A stretch of DNA of 64,000 nt from Micromonospora sp. WMMA1947. Its GTDB lineage: Bacteria > Actinomycetota > Actinomycetes > Mycobacteriales > Micromonosporaceae. How positions within the stretch are numbered: position 1 is the first letter of the stretch; every line of letters begins with the position of its first letter. A program made the position numbers and the translations under genes. The DNA lies in contig NZ_CP114909.1 in the NCBI RefSeq assembly GCF_027497355.1, forward strand, positions 1,860,001 through 1,924,000, given 5' to 3'. The notes below the pieces were generated by a model, which searched no databases, was not told the origin of the DNA, and worked only from the letters and a program-made list of their open reading frames with translations. Positions 7,683 to 56,003 of the stretch are shown here, in pieces.

Positions 7683-7756
7683 GCCTGATGGACGTGAGCG
7701 GGAGAATGAACCTGGCCCGTCGGTCGTGGAAGTTCTGCCCGAGTGGCCGGACGCTC

Positions 7757-8818
7757 CTATGGCGCGTCAAGTGGCTGGGGTGGGCTTTCGAGGCGTCGGT
7801 AGAGGTCTCTTGCGATGTATCGCTTGAGGCAGCGTTTGATCTCTCGGTCGGTTTTGCCTTGGGCGCGGCGGCGGTCGGCGTAGGCGCGGGTGGGCTCGTC
7901 GTAGCGCAGTCGGGACAGGGCGACGGTGTGCAGGGCGCGGTTGAGTTGCCGGTCGCCTGAGCGGTTGAGCCGGTAGCGGATGGTTTTGCCGGATGAAGCA
8001 GGGATCGGGGCGGCGCCGGCGAGCATGGCGAACGCGGCGTCGTTGCGGCAGCGTCCGGGGTGGGACCAGGCGGTCAGGACGGTGGCGGCGACGATGGGTC
8101 CGACGCCAGTGAGGTCGAGCAGGTCGGGGCGCCAGGAGCGCACGATCATGCGGATGGCTGTCTCGTGGCTGGCTGCCTCCGTTTCCAAGGTCCGAATGCG
8201 TCGGGCGAGATCACGTAACACTGCCAGCGCGGTGGCGGCCTCGATGTCGCCACCGGCCGTGGTCGGTCGCAGCCGGCCAGCCGTGGTGATCATCGTTCGG
8301 GTGCGCTGCCCGCGAAAGCGGGTTCGCACCGCTTCGGGAGCGGTGATGACCATCGCGTGCAGCTGCCGCTGGGCGGCGGTGGCAGCCTCGACGGCCGCCC
8401 GGCGGGCGGTCAGCCGCATCTGCAGCGCTGCCCGCTGAGGCCCGGTCTTGGGCTGCGTCAGCCGGGTGCGGGCCAGGGCATCACGGGCGGCGCGTTCGGC
8501 GTCGATCGGGTCGGACTTCGCCCCGGCCCGGCGAGTCGGCCGCTTGGGGCGGTCCAGCTCGACAACCAGCTCACCGGCATCGGCCAGATAACGGTGAAGG
8601 CCGGCGCCGTAGCCGCCGGTGCCCTCCAGCGCCCAGGCCCGCAACCCTGACTGCTCATCGGCCAGGGCTACCAGCTCGGCGTAGCCGTCCGGGTCGGTGT
8701 TCACCCTGACCCGTGCCAGCACGGCACCGGTGCGGGCATCGAGGACCGCGGCGGTGTGGGTGTCTTTGTGCGTGTCGACGCCGATGACGACCTCGACCAG
8801 ATCTGCCAGCATGGACAT
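7757..8818 (-). CDS. IS110 family transposase (IS-A)
   Basis: A 353-residue RNA-guided recombinase-type transposase. The N-terminal RuvC-like DEDD domain begins VIGVDTHKDTHTAAV and has KSDPIDAERAARDAL. The C-terminal Transposase_20 domain has LTGVGPIVAATVLTAW and the catalytic-Ser region PIPASSGKTIRYRLNRSGDR. The ATG at 8818 is preceded by GAGGAG at 7 bases; a further ATG follows two codons later. All expected domains are intact with no frameshift, so it may be active. It is clearly related to, but diverged from, the IS-B transposase (53383-54462). Confidence 0.93.
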   Translation of the reverse strand: MSMLADLVEVVIGVDTHKDTHTAAVLDARTGAVLARVRVNTDPDGYAELVALADEQSGLRAWALEGTGGYGAGLHRYLADAGELVVELDRPKRPTRRAGAKSDPIDAERAARDALARTRLTQPKTGPQRAALQMRLTARRAAVEAATAAQRQLHAMVITAPEAVRTRFRGQRTRTMITTAGRLRPTTAGGDIEAATALAVLRDLARRIRTLETEAASHETAIRMIVRSWRPDLLDLTGVGPIVAATVLTAWSHPGRCRNDAAFAMLAGAAPIPASSGKTIRYRLNRSGDRQLNRALHTVALSRLRYDEPTRAYADRRRAQGKTDREIKRCLKRYIARDLYRRLESPPQPLDAP

Positions 8819-8868
8819 GCGTTCTCTCCTCACCGTGGGGGACGCGAGGTCCGGTCCGGCGCGGAGAT

Positions 8869-9026
8869 GGCAGGACTGTGATGAGACACGCCAGCCGCTA
8901 ACTGGCGGTCAAGCTCCTGATCAGGCCAAACGTCTCCCGCCGGGCCGGCGCTGGCAGCAGCAGACGGACAAGTCCCGCCAAGGGCACAAAGCCAGTCAGA
9001 CGAAGGGTCACGCCTGCCACTGCCAG
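8869..9026 (-). ncRNA. candidate bridge RNA of IS-A
   Basis: The non-coding segment upstream of the transposase folds, in the transposase direction, into a 16-bp stem with three wobbles (9026-9011 with 8966-8951). The stem encloses an internal loop capped by GGC-TTTGT-GCC. The 5' side holds GTCTGAC (9001-8995) and the 3' side TGGCGGGA (8980-8973). TGGCGG is also the sequence just outside the left end of this element, and the complement of TCTG is CAGA, found just outside the right end. Blocks shared with IS-B include GCGCCGGCCCGGC (8951-8939), TGGCCTGATCAG (8928-8917) and CATCACAG (8883-8876). IS110 elements are known to encode bridge RNAs in this position; expression is inferred. Confidence 0.65.
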
Positions 9027-9069
9027 CCATCAGCTCATCACTACTGAACCGACCCCGCCATGCTCACAG

Positions 9070-51548: not shown

Positions 51549-52997
51549 ATGGTCAGACGGGGCTGGGGAGGATCGACAGCCGCCGCGCTCGGCGTCGCCG
51601 CCGGCGCGGGCGCCGCGCAGCTCGGTTTCGGGTACGGGCTGGGCATCATCGACTGGTCGCCGGCCGGTGCGGTACGGGACGAGGCCGCCTGGGTGGCGAG
51701 CCTCGCCTGGGCCACCTGGATCGCGGCGACCTCGGTCATCGTCGGGGCGGTCTGCGCCCAGCGCCTGCGCGGCCACGACGACGAGCCGCAGGGCGCGCTG
51801 CCCCGGCTCGGCCTGGCGCTCGCCGCCGGTGCCGGCGCGCTCGTCACCGTCCTGCTGGTGGCGGTTCCGGCGCGGGCCGCCCGGGTACCGGACGTCTCCG
51901 CGCCGCAGGCCGTCGCCGCCGCGTACGCGGGCGCGGGGCTGCTGCTCGGCGTGCTGCTGGCCGTCTGGGCGCTGCACACCCGTGCCGCCGCCACCAACCT
52001 GATCGCCACCACCGGCTGGCTCTGGCTGCTCGCCGTGGTGTCGGTGGTCGACGGGGTGGTCGCCGGCCGTGGCCTGACCACCGCCCAGCTCGGCATCTGG
52101 CAGATCAGCGCGGACCGTGGCGCGTTCTGGATCCGCGACTACTTCTACTGGCCCGGGGCGCTGCTGTCGGTGCTCTCCGCTCTGGTGATCGGCCTGGTGG
52201 CGGCCCGGCGAGCCGCCCGCGCACCGGAGATCCGGGTCGGCGCGGCGGCCTCCGGTGCGGCCGGACCGCTGCTCGTCGCGCTGGCGTACCTGCTCGCCGT
52301 GCCGCGCCTGGCCGGGATCGCCGCGGAACAGTTGTCGGCCCACCTGATCGCCCCGTACGCGGTGATCGCCGGCGTCGGCGGCTCGATGGTGATGGCCGCG
52401 CTGGCCCAGCGCGCCGAGCGTCGCGGCGTCGAGCGGGTGACCGTGCCCCGTCAGCGCACCGGCGAGCCGGACGCCGTGGACGGGGAGCCTGCGTCGAGCG
52501 GCGAGAACACGGCCGAGCCGGGCGGCGAGCCGACCCCTGACGACGTGACCCGGCCGATTGGGTCGGCGTCGGCGATCTCGGGCACGTCGGCGTCCGGCAA
52601 GTCGTCCAGGTCGGCGCCGGACCGACCCGCGTCCGGCCGGTCGACGTCGGACGCTTCGGGCCTCGCGACCGGACCGGAGAAGGCGCCGGACCCGTTGGCC
52701 GGTTCCTTACGGGACGGGGTGACGGAGGGCGAACCAGGCGCGGCATCGGGTCGGACGGAGACGGAGCGGGGTCGCGCCACGCGGTCCACCACCGGCCGCC
52801 GTGGACGCGCCGTGCCACCGCAGCGGCAGCCCGACGCATCCGAGCAGGCCGTCTCCGCAGGCCCGCGCGACAAGGGCGCGAACGCCAACGAGACGAGCCC
52901 ACGGAGCACGACGCCGGGCGACTCCGCATCCCCGGCCGGCGCGCCCGACCAGGCCGACCCACCCTCGACCGAGAGCACCCCTCGCCGACGCCGCTGA
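51549..52997 (+). CDS. polytopic membrane protein with disordered C-terminal tail
   Basis: A 482-residue protein with seven or eight TM helices in the first 300 residues and a low-complexity, Ser/Thr/Gly/Glu-rich tail of about 170 residues. I do not recognise a family. A TACGCT box (51536-51541) lies 7 bases before the ATG, again suggesting a leaderless transcript. It is divergent from the PASTA gene. Confidence 0.75.
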   Translation: MVRRGWGGSTAAALGVAAGAGAAQLGFGYGLGIIDWSPAGAVRDEAAWVASLAWATWIAATSVIVGAVCAQRLRGHDDEPQGALPRLGLALAAGAGALVTVLLVAVPARAARVPDVSAPQAVAAAYAGAGLLLGVLLAVWALHTRAAATNLIATTGWLWLLAVVSVVDGVVAGRGLTTAQLGIWQISADRGAFWIRDYFYWPGALLSVLSALVIGLVAARRAARAPEIRVGAAASGAAGPLLVALAYLLAVPRLAGIAAEQLSAHLIAPYAVIAGVGGSMVMAALAQRAERRGVERVTVPRQRTGEPDAVDGEPASSGENTAEPGGEPTPDDVTRPIGSASAISGTSASGKSSRSAPDRPASGRSTSDASGLATGPEKAPDPLAGSLRDGVTEGEPGAASGRTETERGRATRSTTGRRGRAVPPQRQPDASEQAVSAGPRDKGANANETSPRSTTPGDSASPAGAPDQADPPSTESTPRRRR

Positions 52998-53024
52998 GCC
53001 GACCCGCACCGCCCTGGCTCGGCT

Positions 53025-53093
53025 CGTCGATCTTGCAGTTATGGTCCCTCGGATGTCCTAAAAGGGAGGTTTGCGGGGGCCACAAGTGCAAGA
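53025..53093. repeat. REP-like hairpin interrupted by IS-B
   Basis: The left arm CGTCGATCTTGCAGTTATGG (53025-53044) pairs with CCACAAGTGCAAGA (53080-53093), and the rest of the right arm, TCGACG, lies on the other side of IS-B (54480-54485). The original palindrome was therefore about 75 bp long and was split by the element in its right arm. Confidence 0.8.
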
Positions 53094-53150
53094 CGCTTCT
53101 ATGTGTGTGGTGATCGGTTCGGCTGGTTGCCGTTAGGGTTCGGCATCGAT

Positions 53151-53310
53151 GATCACTTGGGTGACTCTTCGTCGATCCGGCTGCCCGTGGTGTGGGTGTG
53201 CCTTGTGCAAGACCTGTCCCCGGGTGATCGTCGGCGCCGGCCCGGCCCACCCTGCTGGCCTGATCAGAAGCCTGCCCGTGCGAGCACACGTGGCCCATCA
53301 CAGATCTGCC
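53151..53310 (+). ncRNA. candidate bridge RNA of IS-B
   Basis: An 11-bp stem (53151-53161 with 53219-53229) encloses an internal loop and a capping hairpin (53179-53202). The 5' side of the loop holds GTCGATC (53171-53177), complementary to the right flank GATCGAC. The 3' side holds GTGCAAGA (53205-53212), identical to the left flank. The two segments would thus pair with opposite strands of the actual insertion site, which is the behaviour of the target-binding loop of IS110 bridge RNAs. The downstream half (53234-53310), with GCGCCGGCCCGGC and TGGCCTGATCAG blocks shared with IS-A, is the expected donor-binding part. Expression is inferred. Confidence 0.8.
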
Positions 53311-53382
53311 GCCGTGGTGACTGCTTCCCGAGCCGACGCCGACTGTCCCGGTCGTCGCTGGCTAAAGGAGCAACAATCCGAG

Positions 53383-54462
53383 ATGACAAGGATCGTAGAG
53401 CGAGTCGCGGATCGCTACGACGTGGTGGTAGGGGTCGATACTCACACCGACACGCACACCGCCGCCGTGGTCGACCGTCTCGGCGCCGTGCTGGCGCAGG
53501 TCACCGTGCCCACCGACCCGGACGGGTTGGCCCGGCTGCTGGCCTTCGCCGTCGCGCACACCCCACCGCAGGGGCGCCGGTTGTGGGCGGTGGAAGGAAC
53601 CCGGGCGCACGGTCAAGGGCTGTGCCGGGTGCTGACCGCTGCCGGTGAAGCGGTCAGCGAGGCACCCAAACCCGCCGCCGCGTCACGCCGGCGGGGCGGC
53701 AAGTCCGACCACCTGGATGCGGTCGCCGCCGCCCATACGGTGCTTGCCCTGCCCGCTGAGCGCATCGCCGTGCCCCGAAGCGACGGACCACGCGAGGCAC
53801 TGCGTCTGCTGCTGATCTGCCGCCGACACCACAGCGACACCCGCACCGCCACGATCAACCTGGTCAAAGCGTTGATCCTGACCGCCGACGACACCCTGCG
53901 CGAGGCGCTACGCGGGCTGTCCACCACCACCCAGATCGCCCGCCTGGCCGCCCTCGACCTACCCGAAACCACCGACCTGCCCTGCGAGGAACACACCCGC
54001 CGCCGCGAACTGACCACCCTCGCCCGGCACATCCAAACCCTCGACGCCACCCTCGCCGACAACCACCGGCGCCTCCGAACCCTCGTCACACACCTGTGCC
54101 CACCCCTGCTCGACCAACCCGGCATCGGACCCGTCACCGCCGCGATCGCCCTCACCGCCTGGTCCCACCCCGGCCGCGTCCGATCAGAAGCCGCCTACGC
54201 CACCCTCGCCGGCACCGCCCCCATCCCCGCAGCCAGCGGCCGCACCAACCGCCACCGCCTCAACCGCGGCGGCGACAGAACCCTCAACAGCGCCCTACAC
54301 ACCATCGCCCTCACCCGCCGCCGCATCCACCCCGAAACCCGCGACTACATCACCCGACGCCGCACCGAAGGCCGCACCACCAAAGAAATCACCCGCTGCC
54401 TCAAGCGCTACATCGCCCGACAGATCTACCGCACCATCACCAACCACCACCGCACCACTTGA
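53383..54462 (+). CDS. IS110 family transposase (IS-B)
   Basis: A 359-residue DEDD transposase. The N-terminal RuvC-like domain has VVGVDTHTDTHTAAVV and GKSDHLDAVAAAHTVL; the C-terminal Transposase_20 domain has PGIGPVTAAIALTAWSHPGR and PIPAASGRTNRHRLNRGGDR with the catalytic Ser. It is intact. The ATG at 53383 follows AAAGGAG at 12 bases; a longer reading frame runs through the bridge-RNA region and is rejected as the coding start. Codon use is less G/C-skewed and CAC/ACC-rich compared with neighbours. Confidence 0.93.
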   Translation: MTRIVERVADRYDVVVGVDTHTDTHTAAVVDRLGAVLAQVTVPTDPDGLARLLAFAVAHTPPQGRRLWAVEGTRAHGQGLCRVLTAAGEAVSEAPKPAAASRRRGGKSDHLDAVAAAHTVLALPAERIAVPRSDGPREALRLLLICRRHHSDTRTATINLVKALILTADDTLREALRGLSTTTQIARLAALDLPETTDLPCEEHTRRRELTTLARHIQTLDATLADNHRRLRTLVTHLCPPLLDQPGIGPVTAAIALTAWSHPGRVRSEAAYATLAGTAPIPAASGRTNRHRLNRGGDRTLNSALHTIALTRRRIHPETRDYITRRRTEGRTTKEITRCLKRYIARQIYRTITNHHRTT

Positions 54463-54524
54463 CAACCCCCACTCACAGATCGACGGGGCGAGGCGGGCGG
54501 GGCGCGGGGCGGGAACGCGAGGGC

Positions 54525-56003
54525 TCAGTCGATGGGCCAGGTGTGGACCGGCTCGTTGGCGCGCTGCAACTCGGCGTACCGCTGGACCATGTGGCGCAGT
54601 GCTGCCTCCCGGTCCAGGCCCCGGTGCCGCTCGGCCGTCCAGACCGTCTCCGTCTGCCAGACCGCACCGTTGCGGCCGGTACGGCAGCGGCCCTCGATCA
54701 CGCCGAGCAGGCGGTCCCGCTCGGCCGGGGCGACACCGAACCGGTCCAGGCCCTCCGCGGCCACCGGCAGCAGCGTGTCCAGCACGAGGGTGGTCACCGG
54801 CACGTCACCGAGCCGGGGCCAGTGCAGGACCGCCTCGATGCCGCGCCGGGCGGCGGCGTGGAAGTTCTCCTCCGCCGAGCTGAACGTCAGCTGGCTCCAG
54901 ATCGGACGGTCCGACTCGGCGAGACCCCGGGCCAGCCCGAAGTAGAACGCCGCGTTGGCGAGCATGTCCACCACTGTCGGGCCGGCGGGCAGCACCCGGT
55001 TCTCCACCCGCAGGTGCGGGCGGTCGTTCATGATGTCGTAGACGGGCCGGTTCCAGCGGTAGACGGTGCCGTTGTGCAGCCGCAGCTCACCGAGCCGGGG
55101 CACGCCACCGGCGTGCAGCACCTCGACCGGGTCCTCCTCCTCGCAGATGGGCAGCAGCGGCGGGAAGTAGCGGACGTTCTCCTCGAACAGGTCGAAGATC
55201 GAGGTGATCCAGCGTTCGCCGAACCACACCCGGGGGCGTACGCCCTGGGCCTTCAGCTCGTCCGGACGCGTGTCGGTGGCCTGCTGGAACAGCGCGATCC
55301 GGGTCTCCGCCCAGAGCTGCCGGCCGTAGAGGAACGGCGAGTTGGCGCCGACGGCGACCTGCACGCCGGCGATCGCCTGGGAGGCGTTCCAGTAGTCGGC
55401 GAAGCTGTCCGGCGCGACCTGGAGGTGGAACTGGAGGCTGGTGCAGGCGGCCTCCGGCGCGATCGAGTCGGTGTGCGTCCGCAGCCGCTCGACGCCGTTG
55501 ATGTCCAGCTCGATGTCCTCGCCCCGGGCACCGACGATCTGGTCGTTGAGGACGCGGTACCGCTCGTTCGTGGAGAGGTTGTCGGCGACCAGGTGGCGCT
55601 CGGTGAGCGTGGGCAGGATGCCGACCATCATGATCGTCGCGTCGGACTTGGCGGCCCGCTCGTCGGCACGGCTGAGGCTGCTGCGGAGGTCCTGCTCGTA
55701 GTCGGCGAAGCCGCTGCCCTCGATCAGCCGGGGCGAGGCGTTCAGTTCGAGGTTGAACTGTCCCAGCTCGGTCTGGAACAGCGGGTCGGCGATGTCGGCC
55801 AGGATCTGGTCGTTGCGCATGGCCGGTTGGGCGACGGCGTCGATCAGGTTCAGCTCGATCTCCAGCCCGGTCATCGGGCGGTCGGCGTCGAAGCCGAAGT
55901 CGTCGAGCATCAGCGCGAAGACGTCCAGACATCGCCGGACCTTCTGCCGGTAGCGGACCCGATCCTCGCGGGAGAAGGCGCCCTGCTCGACGTCTCTGCC
56001 CAT
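54525..56003 (-). CDS. glutamate-cysteine ligase (GCS2) family protein
   Basis: A 492-residue carboxylate-amine ligase of the GCS2 superfamily. It contains MTGLEIELNLIDA (the acidic nucleotide/metal site), QFNLELNASPRLIEG, SLQFHLQVAPDSFADYWNAS and PHLRVENRVLPAGPT. Relatives ligate glutamate to an amine (GshA, EgtA and homologues such as mycobacterial Rv0433). Actinomycetes use mycothiol rather than glutathione, so the substrate may be another amine. The ATG at 56003 has GGGAGG upstream. Confidence 0.87.
   Translation of the reverse strand: MGRDVEQGAFSREDRVRYRQKVRRCLDVFALMLDDFGFDADRPMTGLEIELNLIDAVAQPAMRNDQILADIADPLFQTELGQFNLELNASPRLIEGSGFADYEQDLRSSLSRADERAAKSDATIMMVGILPTLTERHLVADNLSTNERYRVLNDQIVGARGEDIELDINGVERLRTHTDSIAPEAACTSLQFHLQVAPDSFADYWNASQAIAGVQVAVGANSPFLYGRQLWAETRIALFQQATDTRPDELKAQGVRPRVWFGERWITSIFDLFEENVRYFPPLLPICEEEDPVEVLHAGGVPRLGELRLHNGTVYRWNRPVYDIMNDRPHLRVENRVLPAGPTVVDMLANAAFYFGLARGLAESDRPIWSQLTFSSAEENFHAAARRGIEAVLHWPRLGDVPVTTLVLDTLLPVAAEGLDRFGVAPAERDRLLGVIEGRCRTGRNGAVWQTETVWTAERHRGLDREAALRHMVQRYAELQRANEPVHTWPID

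Follow-up and report, generated by a model that had tools for sequence, protein, structure and literature searches.

Reversed guide order in the predicted bridge RNA of a Micromonospora IS110-type element, probably through one ancestral flip of the RNA-recombinase cassette

How does an insertion sequence of IS110 type, with its guide RNA region upstream of the recombinase gene, come to read its target in the order reported for IS1111 elements? The question is raised by an element at 53094-54479 of the window, i.e. the whole 64,000-nt stretch of DNA analysed here, from Micromonospora sp. WMMA1947 (genome G000; 6.31 Mb, one contig). Bridge or seeker RNAs were described in two 2024 studies (PMC11208160; PMC11187229). 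IS621 and ISEc21 both have an upstream RNA; their 5′ guide pairs on the left, with the bottom strand, and their 3′ guide on the right, with the top strand. One of the studies (PMC11187229) noted opposite guide orders in IS110 and IS1111 and concluded that the two may differ in the specifics of target recognition. Targeting of IS110 elements by guides is already known, as is insertion into REP sequences (PMC11208160; PMC11187229; PMC1525189).

The element (1386 bp, plus strand) lies in one arm of a REP-like palindrome, between the left target half GTGCAAGA (53086-53093, plus strand, GA core included) and the right target half TCGACG (54480-54485, plus strand). A second copy in the same genome (G000:C1:5348699-5350084, minus strand) is identical at 1386/1386 bases, and outside 53094-54479 the flanks of the two copies are unlike except for the common target letters, AAGTGCAAGA followed by TCGACG at the window copy and by TCGAGG at the second. 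As the earlier note had seen, GA both precedes the left end (53092-53093) and closes the right end (54478-54479), the latter as part of the downstream donor end TCACAGA (54473-54479, plus strand). Two identical copies with GA at both junctions display the fixed ends, and the lack of target duplication beyond a common core, that are traits of the IS110 family.

The recombinase gene (53383-54462, plus strand; 359 aa plus stop) encodes both IS110-family domains, the DEDD RuvC-like domain (Pfam DEDD_Tnp_IS110, 5.5e-17) and Transposase_20 (1.7e-17), with 289 nt of non-coding sequence before the gene and 17 nt past the stop codon. Its nearest named match is from Micromonospora (88%), followed by others from Salinispora and Micromonospora. 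The window protein alone had no match in PDB up to E 0.001; a profile of this protein and 15 relatives matched IS621 (8wt6, E 9.9e-23) and also ISCro4 (9t56), and in the profile alignment D19, E71, D109, D112 and S285 occupy the IS621 active-site positions. D19, D109 and S285 are present in 16/16 of these sequences, D112 in 15/16 and E71 in 14/16; in L052 and L054 (set A, see below) D replaces this catalytic glutamate. The C-terminal motif is GTAPIPAASG and lacks the leucine found in that of IS1111. Upstream of the gene, the recombinase frame stays open as far as an ATG at 53149 (53149-54462), across the predicted bridge RNA, and the true start looks to be the ATG at 53383, behind AAAGGAG. TTGACA at 54459-54464 (plus strand) could provide the -35 box of a promoter created when the ends are joined in a circle, with a weak -10 (TTCTAT) across the junction. 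TTGACA with TTCTAT 17-18 bases on was found at 13/13 distinct set A junctions, this -10 matching in 3/6 letters only, and set B and C junctions have TTGACA or TTGACG and other -10s.

Alignment of 23 upstream regions (RNAalifold plus pair counts) yielded two predicted stem-loops on the plus strand. The target-binding stem-loop (53137-53242) consists of a stem, 53137-53165/53216-53242, and a cap, 53179-53202 (helix 5); the 11-bp stem at 53151-53161/53219-53229 proposed in the earlier note proved to be part of this longer covarying stem, and its capping hairpin is likewise real. The donor-binding stem-loop (53257-53310) is formed by 53257-53259/53308-53310 and 53274-53282/53285-53294 (helices 6 and 7); helix 7 has six pairs changed on both sides, and helix 6 hardly varies. 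The 37 consensus pairs, 21 of which vary on both sides, bear out the proposed stem, and 94.7% of 838 cells are paired, versus 33.6-50.3% in slid versions. None of 500 shuffles attained any of five structure measures (23 sequences). The case for this structure is made by covariation over the 23 sequences, not by single-sequence energy, the window RNA alone folding no better than shuffles (z -1.02; 27/200 fold at least as well). No Rfam match was found in the window at 52900-54600 up to E = 1. An upstream RNA with target and donor loops, supported at sequence level by covariation and by guide tracking, is an IS110-group trait.

In the first loop, the 5′ target guide CGTCGATC (53170-53177, plus strand) is complementary to GATCGACG of the right flank, and the 3′ target guide (53205-53212, plus strand) is the same GTGCAAGA as the left flank at 53086-53093 and pairs with the bottom strand; jointly they spell the 14-nt target GTGCAAGATCGACG. 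The left-flank identity and the 14-nt target had been read correctly before, as had the complementarity of GTCGATC to the right flank, although that segment was given one base short of its 8 nt. When this non-coding region (289 nt) was given 20000 dinucleotide shuffles, the left 8-mer alone appeared in 140, the right alone in 438 and both (either strand) in 2. In the second loop, the 5′ donor guide AGAAGC (53266-53271, plus strand) is complementary to the upstream end of the element (GACGCTTCT), and the 3′ donor guide TCACAGA (53298-53304, plus strand) is the same as its downstream end. This donor-binding loop, likewise reversed, had gone unnoticed in the earlier note.

IS621 (PMC11208160; PMC11208158), whose target length served as the yardstick in that note, is alike in having an upstream RNA with two internal loops, target then donor, each with two guides sharing a dinucleotide core, and catalytic residues that align with the family profile. 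The note overlooked that, relative to the recombinase gene, guide order in the window element is opposite to that of IS621, and this in both loops. The cores also differ, CT in IS621 and GA (TC in the RNA frame) here. ISEc21 (IS110 type, seekRNA; PMC11187229) has an upstream non-coding region, a G--P----SG motif and a transposase of 358 aa versus 359 aa here, but in it the bottom-strand match comes first and the top-strand match 3′ of it, the opposite of the window element. The IS1111 elements ISEc11, ISKpn4 and ISPa11 (PMC11187229) share with the window element a top-strand match 5′ of the bottom-strand match, and ISPa11 likewise targets a REP. IS1111 elements, however, mostly have the RNA downstream, and long subterminal inverted repeats; the window element has neither, its longest run being 4 bp compared with the 7-17 bp of IS1111-type repeats. 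In the part of the open-access literature that was searched, no switch of polarity inside the IS110 group is described.

A contig scan confirmed by tblastn gave 53 loci, and the donor-loop pattern matched 42/354 genomes of the family and 4/394 of the class (own genome included); among the matches listed for family and class genomes, none had the reversed donor-loop pattern. The donor-loop motif is present at 95 distinct loci; 73 of these, with two readable ends and both guides, were kept, and 22 with a missing end or unreadable guide were dropped. Sets A (including the window element), B and C were split by end motifs that exclude the guides and the scored flank letters; ends were found by motif, so donor motifs are common by construction, which is not true of flanks and target guides.

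Set A comprises 23 insertions with 12 guide types. Read in reversed polarity, its 5′ guides matched the right-flank complement in 6.27/8 non-core letters (3.73 when permuted) and its 3′ guides matched the left flank in 4.43/8 (2.24 when permuted), with 0/20000 permutations attaining the observed match for either guide. The sites of related copies thus match their own loops, upholding the earlier claim that specificity can be read there. The same set read in IS621 polarity gave no signal (1.94 vs 2.11 and 1.83 vs 1.73 permuted). Pooled, sets B and C (26 types) matched in forward polarity, i.e. that of IS621 (6.11 vs 3.01 and 3.84 vs 2.45 permuted; 0/20000), with no clear signal in reverse (2.50 vs 2.24, 1688/20000; 2.60 vs 2.64); set C alone (3 types) was non-significant (6620/20000 and 6753/20000). 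By insertion, own polarity fitted better in 23/23 of set A, 38/43 of set B (2 ties, and 3/43 better fitted by the other polarity) and 7/7 of set C, with L119 counted in set B though its guides are of set C type. All 23 parsed set A insertions are therefore reversed relative to the IS110-group order (5′ guide bottom strand, left; 3′ guide top strand, right), having instead the IS1111-group order, and set A polarity is opposite to IS621 and ISEc21 in target and donor loops alike. Examples are L004-L006 (guide TGCAAGATC, target GATCTTGCA), L059 (guide CCATCGATC, target GATCGATGG) and L056 (guide ACAGCAGTC, target GACTGCTGT). The poorest full set A insertions (matches of 8 for each guide) are L052 (4 + 4), L173 (4 + 5) and L058 (5 + 4), and the 3′ guide matches in only 3/8 letters in L003, L005, L056, L061 and L169. 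Of five set A loci with the left end only, four have 6-7/8 matches to the 3′ guide and L076 has 2/8. L161, L153 and L108 have a left end and RNA with an unreadable downstream end and may be remnants or rearranged copies.

Set A elements start with (GA)CGCTTCTAT (CGTTTCTAT in L053) and finish with TCACAGA. Set B elements mostly start with TGTGAG after TC or AC and finish with ATAG(A/G)AG(C/A)NTC, the inverse of set A, although the donor loop is the same. In the RNA frame, the donor of the parsed elements is ATAG(A/G)AG(C/A)NTC joined to TGTGA, the exceptions being L053 (ATAGAAACGTC) and L031 (TGTAA), and the set A cassette sits reversed between the two donor halves compared with the other parsed elements. 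The reversed guide order of set A most likely follows from this turning of the RNA-recombinase cassette between the donor ends. Sharing of donor motifs is partly by construction, since the ends were located by these motifs; the swap of the ends is not. The six donor-guide letters (AGAAGC, AGGAGC or AGGAGA) equal the donor end in 72/73 insertions, with 5/6 letters in the remaining one, and the letter that the donor loop implies for the core agrees with it in 65/73, the eight mismatches (set C and L119) having G where A is implied. Cores of sets B and C have T, A, G or C in first place and nearly always C in second, and left-end and right-end cores may differ (e.g. L010, AC vs TC). Inversion at subterminal inverted repeats was considered as the cause of the swap and is unsupported, set A runs of 3-5 bp being no longer than permuted ones (p 0.34); shared end runs in set B are borderline (p 0.04), L024/L063 giving the one run of 6 bp. 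As a benefit of the swap, a better circle-junction promoter is no more than possible on the junction sequences given above.

The sister IS110 elements of sets B and C (e.g. L063, L010, L106) have a homologous RNA, a related recombinase and the same donor sequence, but differ from set A in having swapped and inverted ends and forward guide order. A second IS110 element in the window (7750-9068, minus strand; match 7797-8123) belongs to set B, has forward order and is present in five genome copies (L010-L014), inserted after CTCG(G/A)CTGAC or CCGCTGAC, often just behind a TGA closing a long open frame. It may pick gene ends and hence do little harm; in set B the frame ending in the target TGA is strictly the longest open frame in only 10/25 insertions, which leaves gene-end targeting by this set a mere possibility.

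Transposase frames set by tblastn were kept for 98/111 rows (74 distinct). After five long or partial rows had been left out, a maximum-likelihood tree was built from 69 transposases, with 14 outgroup rows to root it. Set A, whose rows on the tree are all Micromonosporaceae by name or family code, is one clade (98/96; 97% of the 200 bootstrap trees recover it), and this clade lies in a 38-row group (94/94) that also contains 21 forward elements. Support is weak (78/85 and 76/55) at the nodes between set A and the forward elements closest to it, and it is the 94/94 node that nests set A among forward elements. Six outgroup elements (L079, L027, L026, L084, L080 and L077) have a left-flank-like segment (6-8/8) on the 5′ side, early within the upstream region, as in forward order; a clear right-flank match on the 3′ side in the first loop was found only in L084 and L080 (2/6). 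Single clade, nesting among forward elements and outgroup order together indicate, as far as sequences can, that the reversed state is derived and most likely arose in one event within the sampled elements, the forward order presumably being ancestral.

The target of the window element is one arm of a dispersed palindrome, with 188 sites in G000 (up to 2 mismatches) versus 13 for a control pattern; many of the sites among the matches listed pair on opposite strands about 60 bases apart. The window element, L022 (88% protein identity) and five copies in genome G320 have the 3′ guide TTGTGCAAGA in common, and their left flank is A(A)(G/C)TGCAAGA except in L174 (CACTACAAGA). Their 5′ guides differ, and each time the REP variant matches the element's own guide: CGTCGATC of the window element goes with TCGA sites (2/2; TCGACG, TCGAGG), a guide ending CGCGATC in L022 with a TCGC site (1/1; TCGCGG) and one ending GCCGATC in G320 with TCGG sites (5/5 copies). 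By hand count, 15/91 matched REP arms in G320 bear the G of TCGG, giving a rough chance figure of ~1e-4 for 5/5 if insertions were independent, and 8/55 arms of the same form among the matches listed in the window genome have A. L003-L006 (own genome, set A, 71% DNA identity) occupy the same point of the REP arm in the opposite direction, with a 5′ guide, TGCAAGATC, resembling the 3′ guide of the window element. The set A clade contains a natural reprogramming series, in which related elements with differing 5′ guides match variants of one repeat.

Other readings of the reversed order were weighed. Reading the bridge RNA of this clade from the opposite strand would change which segment stands first, and the reversal would then reflect a wrong choice of strand only. 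We give this very little credence: in set A stems (11 rows) the gene strand has 56 G-U versus 2 A-C cells (50 versus 10 in the 12 other rows), an excess indicating that the bridge RNA is the sense strand of the gene, and pairing falls from 96.5% to 83.2% on the other strand, where the common core also no longer lies at matching ends of both guides. Sets B and C, moreover, are forward though their homologous RNA has the same place and direction. It is just as hard to credit that the loop matches are leftovers of insertion, captured flank or chance, rather than guides. GTGCAAGA is indeed present both in the flank and within the element, and REP sites abound in the window genome; yet the two segments occupy fixed places in one loop and match opposite strands, they were jointly recovered in just two of the shuffles described above, and they change with the target over 12 guide types, including set A targets (e.g. 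of L053, L056, L059 and L060) that lack the TGCAAGATC motif.

Improbable too, if slightly less so, is an IS1111-group element with its RNA relocated upstream, in place of an IS110-group element with swapped ends. The guide order here is that reported for IS1111, one relative of which, ISMtsp17, is reported with an upstream region (PMC11187229). Against this, sister elements on the same tree (which includes no IS1111 reference transposase) have forward order and upstream RNA, long subterminal inverted repeats are absent, the longest set A runs of 3-5 bp not exceeding permutation, and the C-terminal motif lacks the IS1111 leucine.

We therefore favour, with high confidence, an RNA-guided IS110 element whose loop guides read a REP target and whose polarity was reversed by a single ancestral inversion of the cassette, a reading built on what the sequences themselves show: the ends, the covarying fold, guides that match their targets, a swap of the ends, and set A as one clade. 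The predicted bridge RNA would be made from ~53137-53310 and bound by the recombinase; the two guides of its first loop would read the 14-nt target in the dispersed REP-like palindrome, and the second loop the joined ends of the element (donor). Recombinase and RNA most likely act as in IS621, the ends being joined into a circle and the circle inserted at the first-loop target. Turned round once, in an ancestor, between the two donor ends, the RNA-recombinase cassette would have made the element enter its target in the opposite direction, presumably with RNA architecture, donor and chemistry unchanged: as the donor loop would read only the joined ends, a turned cassette would keep a usable donor and merely turn the element in its target. 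The most likely outcome is the guide order reported for IS1111 inside an IS110-type element, by a single flip.

More tentatively, and as a possibility that we rate below even, the chemistry may not fix the direction of the cassette at all, so that one inversion gives the IS1111 order and a similar inversion, with the RNA moved across the gene, separates IS1111 from IS110. If this is true, the reversed order would reflect which way the gene faces, not a different mechanism. Here one IS110 lineage contains the same reversal, accompanied by a swap of the ends, and on both sides of it the RNA is homologous and the recombinases are related. This offers a simple explanation for the reversal of guide order together with forward and reversed relatives in which it may be tested.
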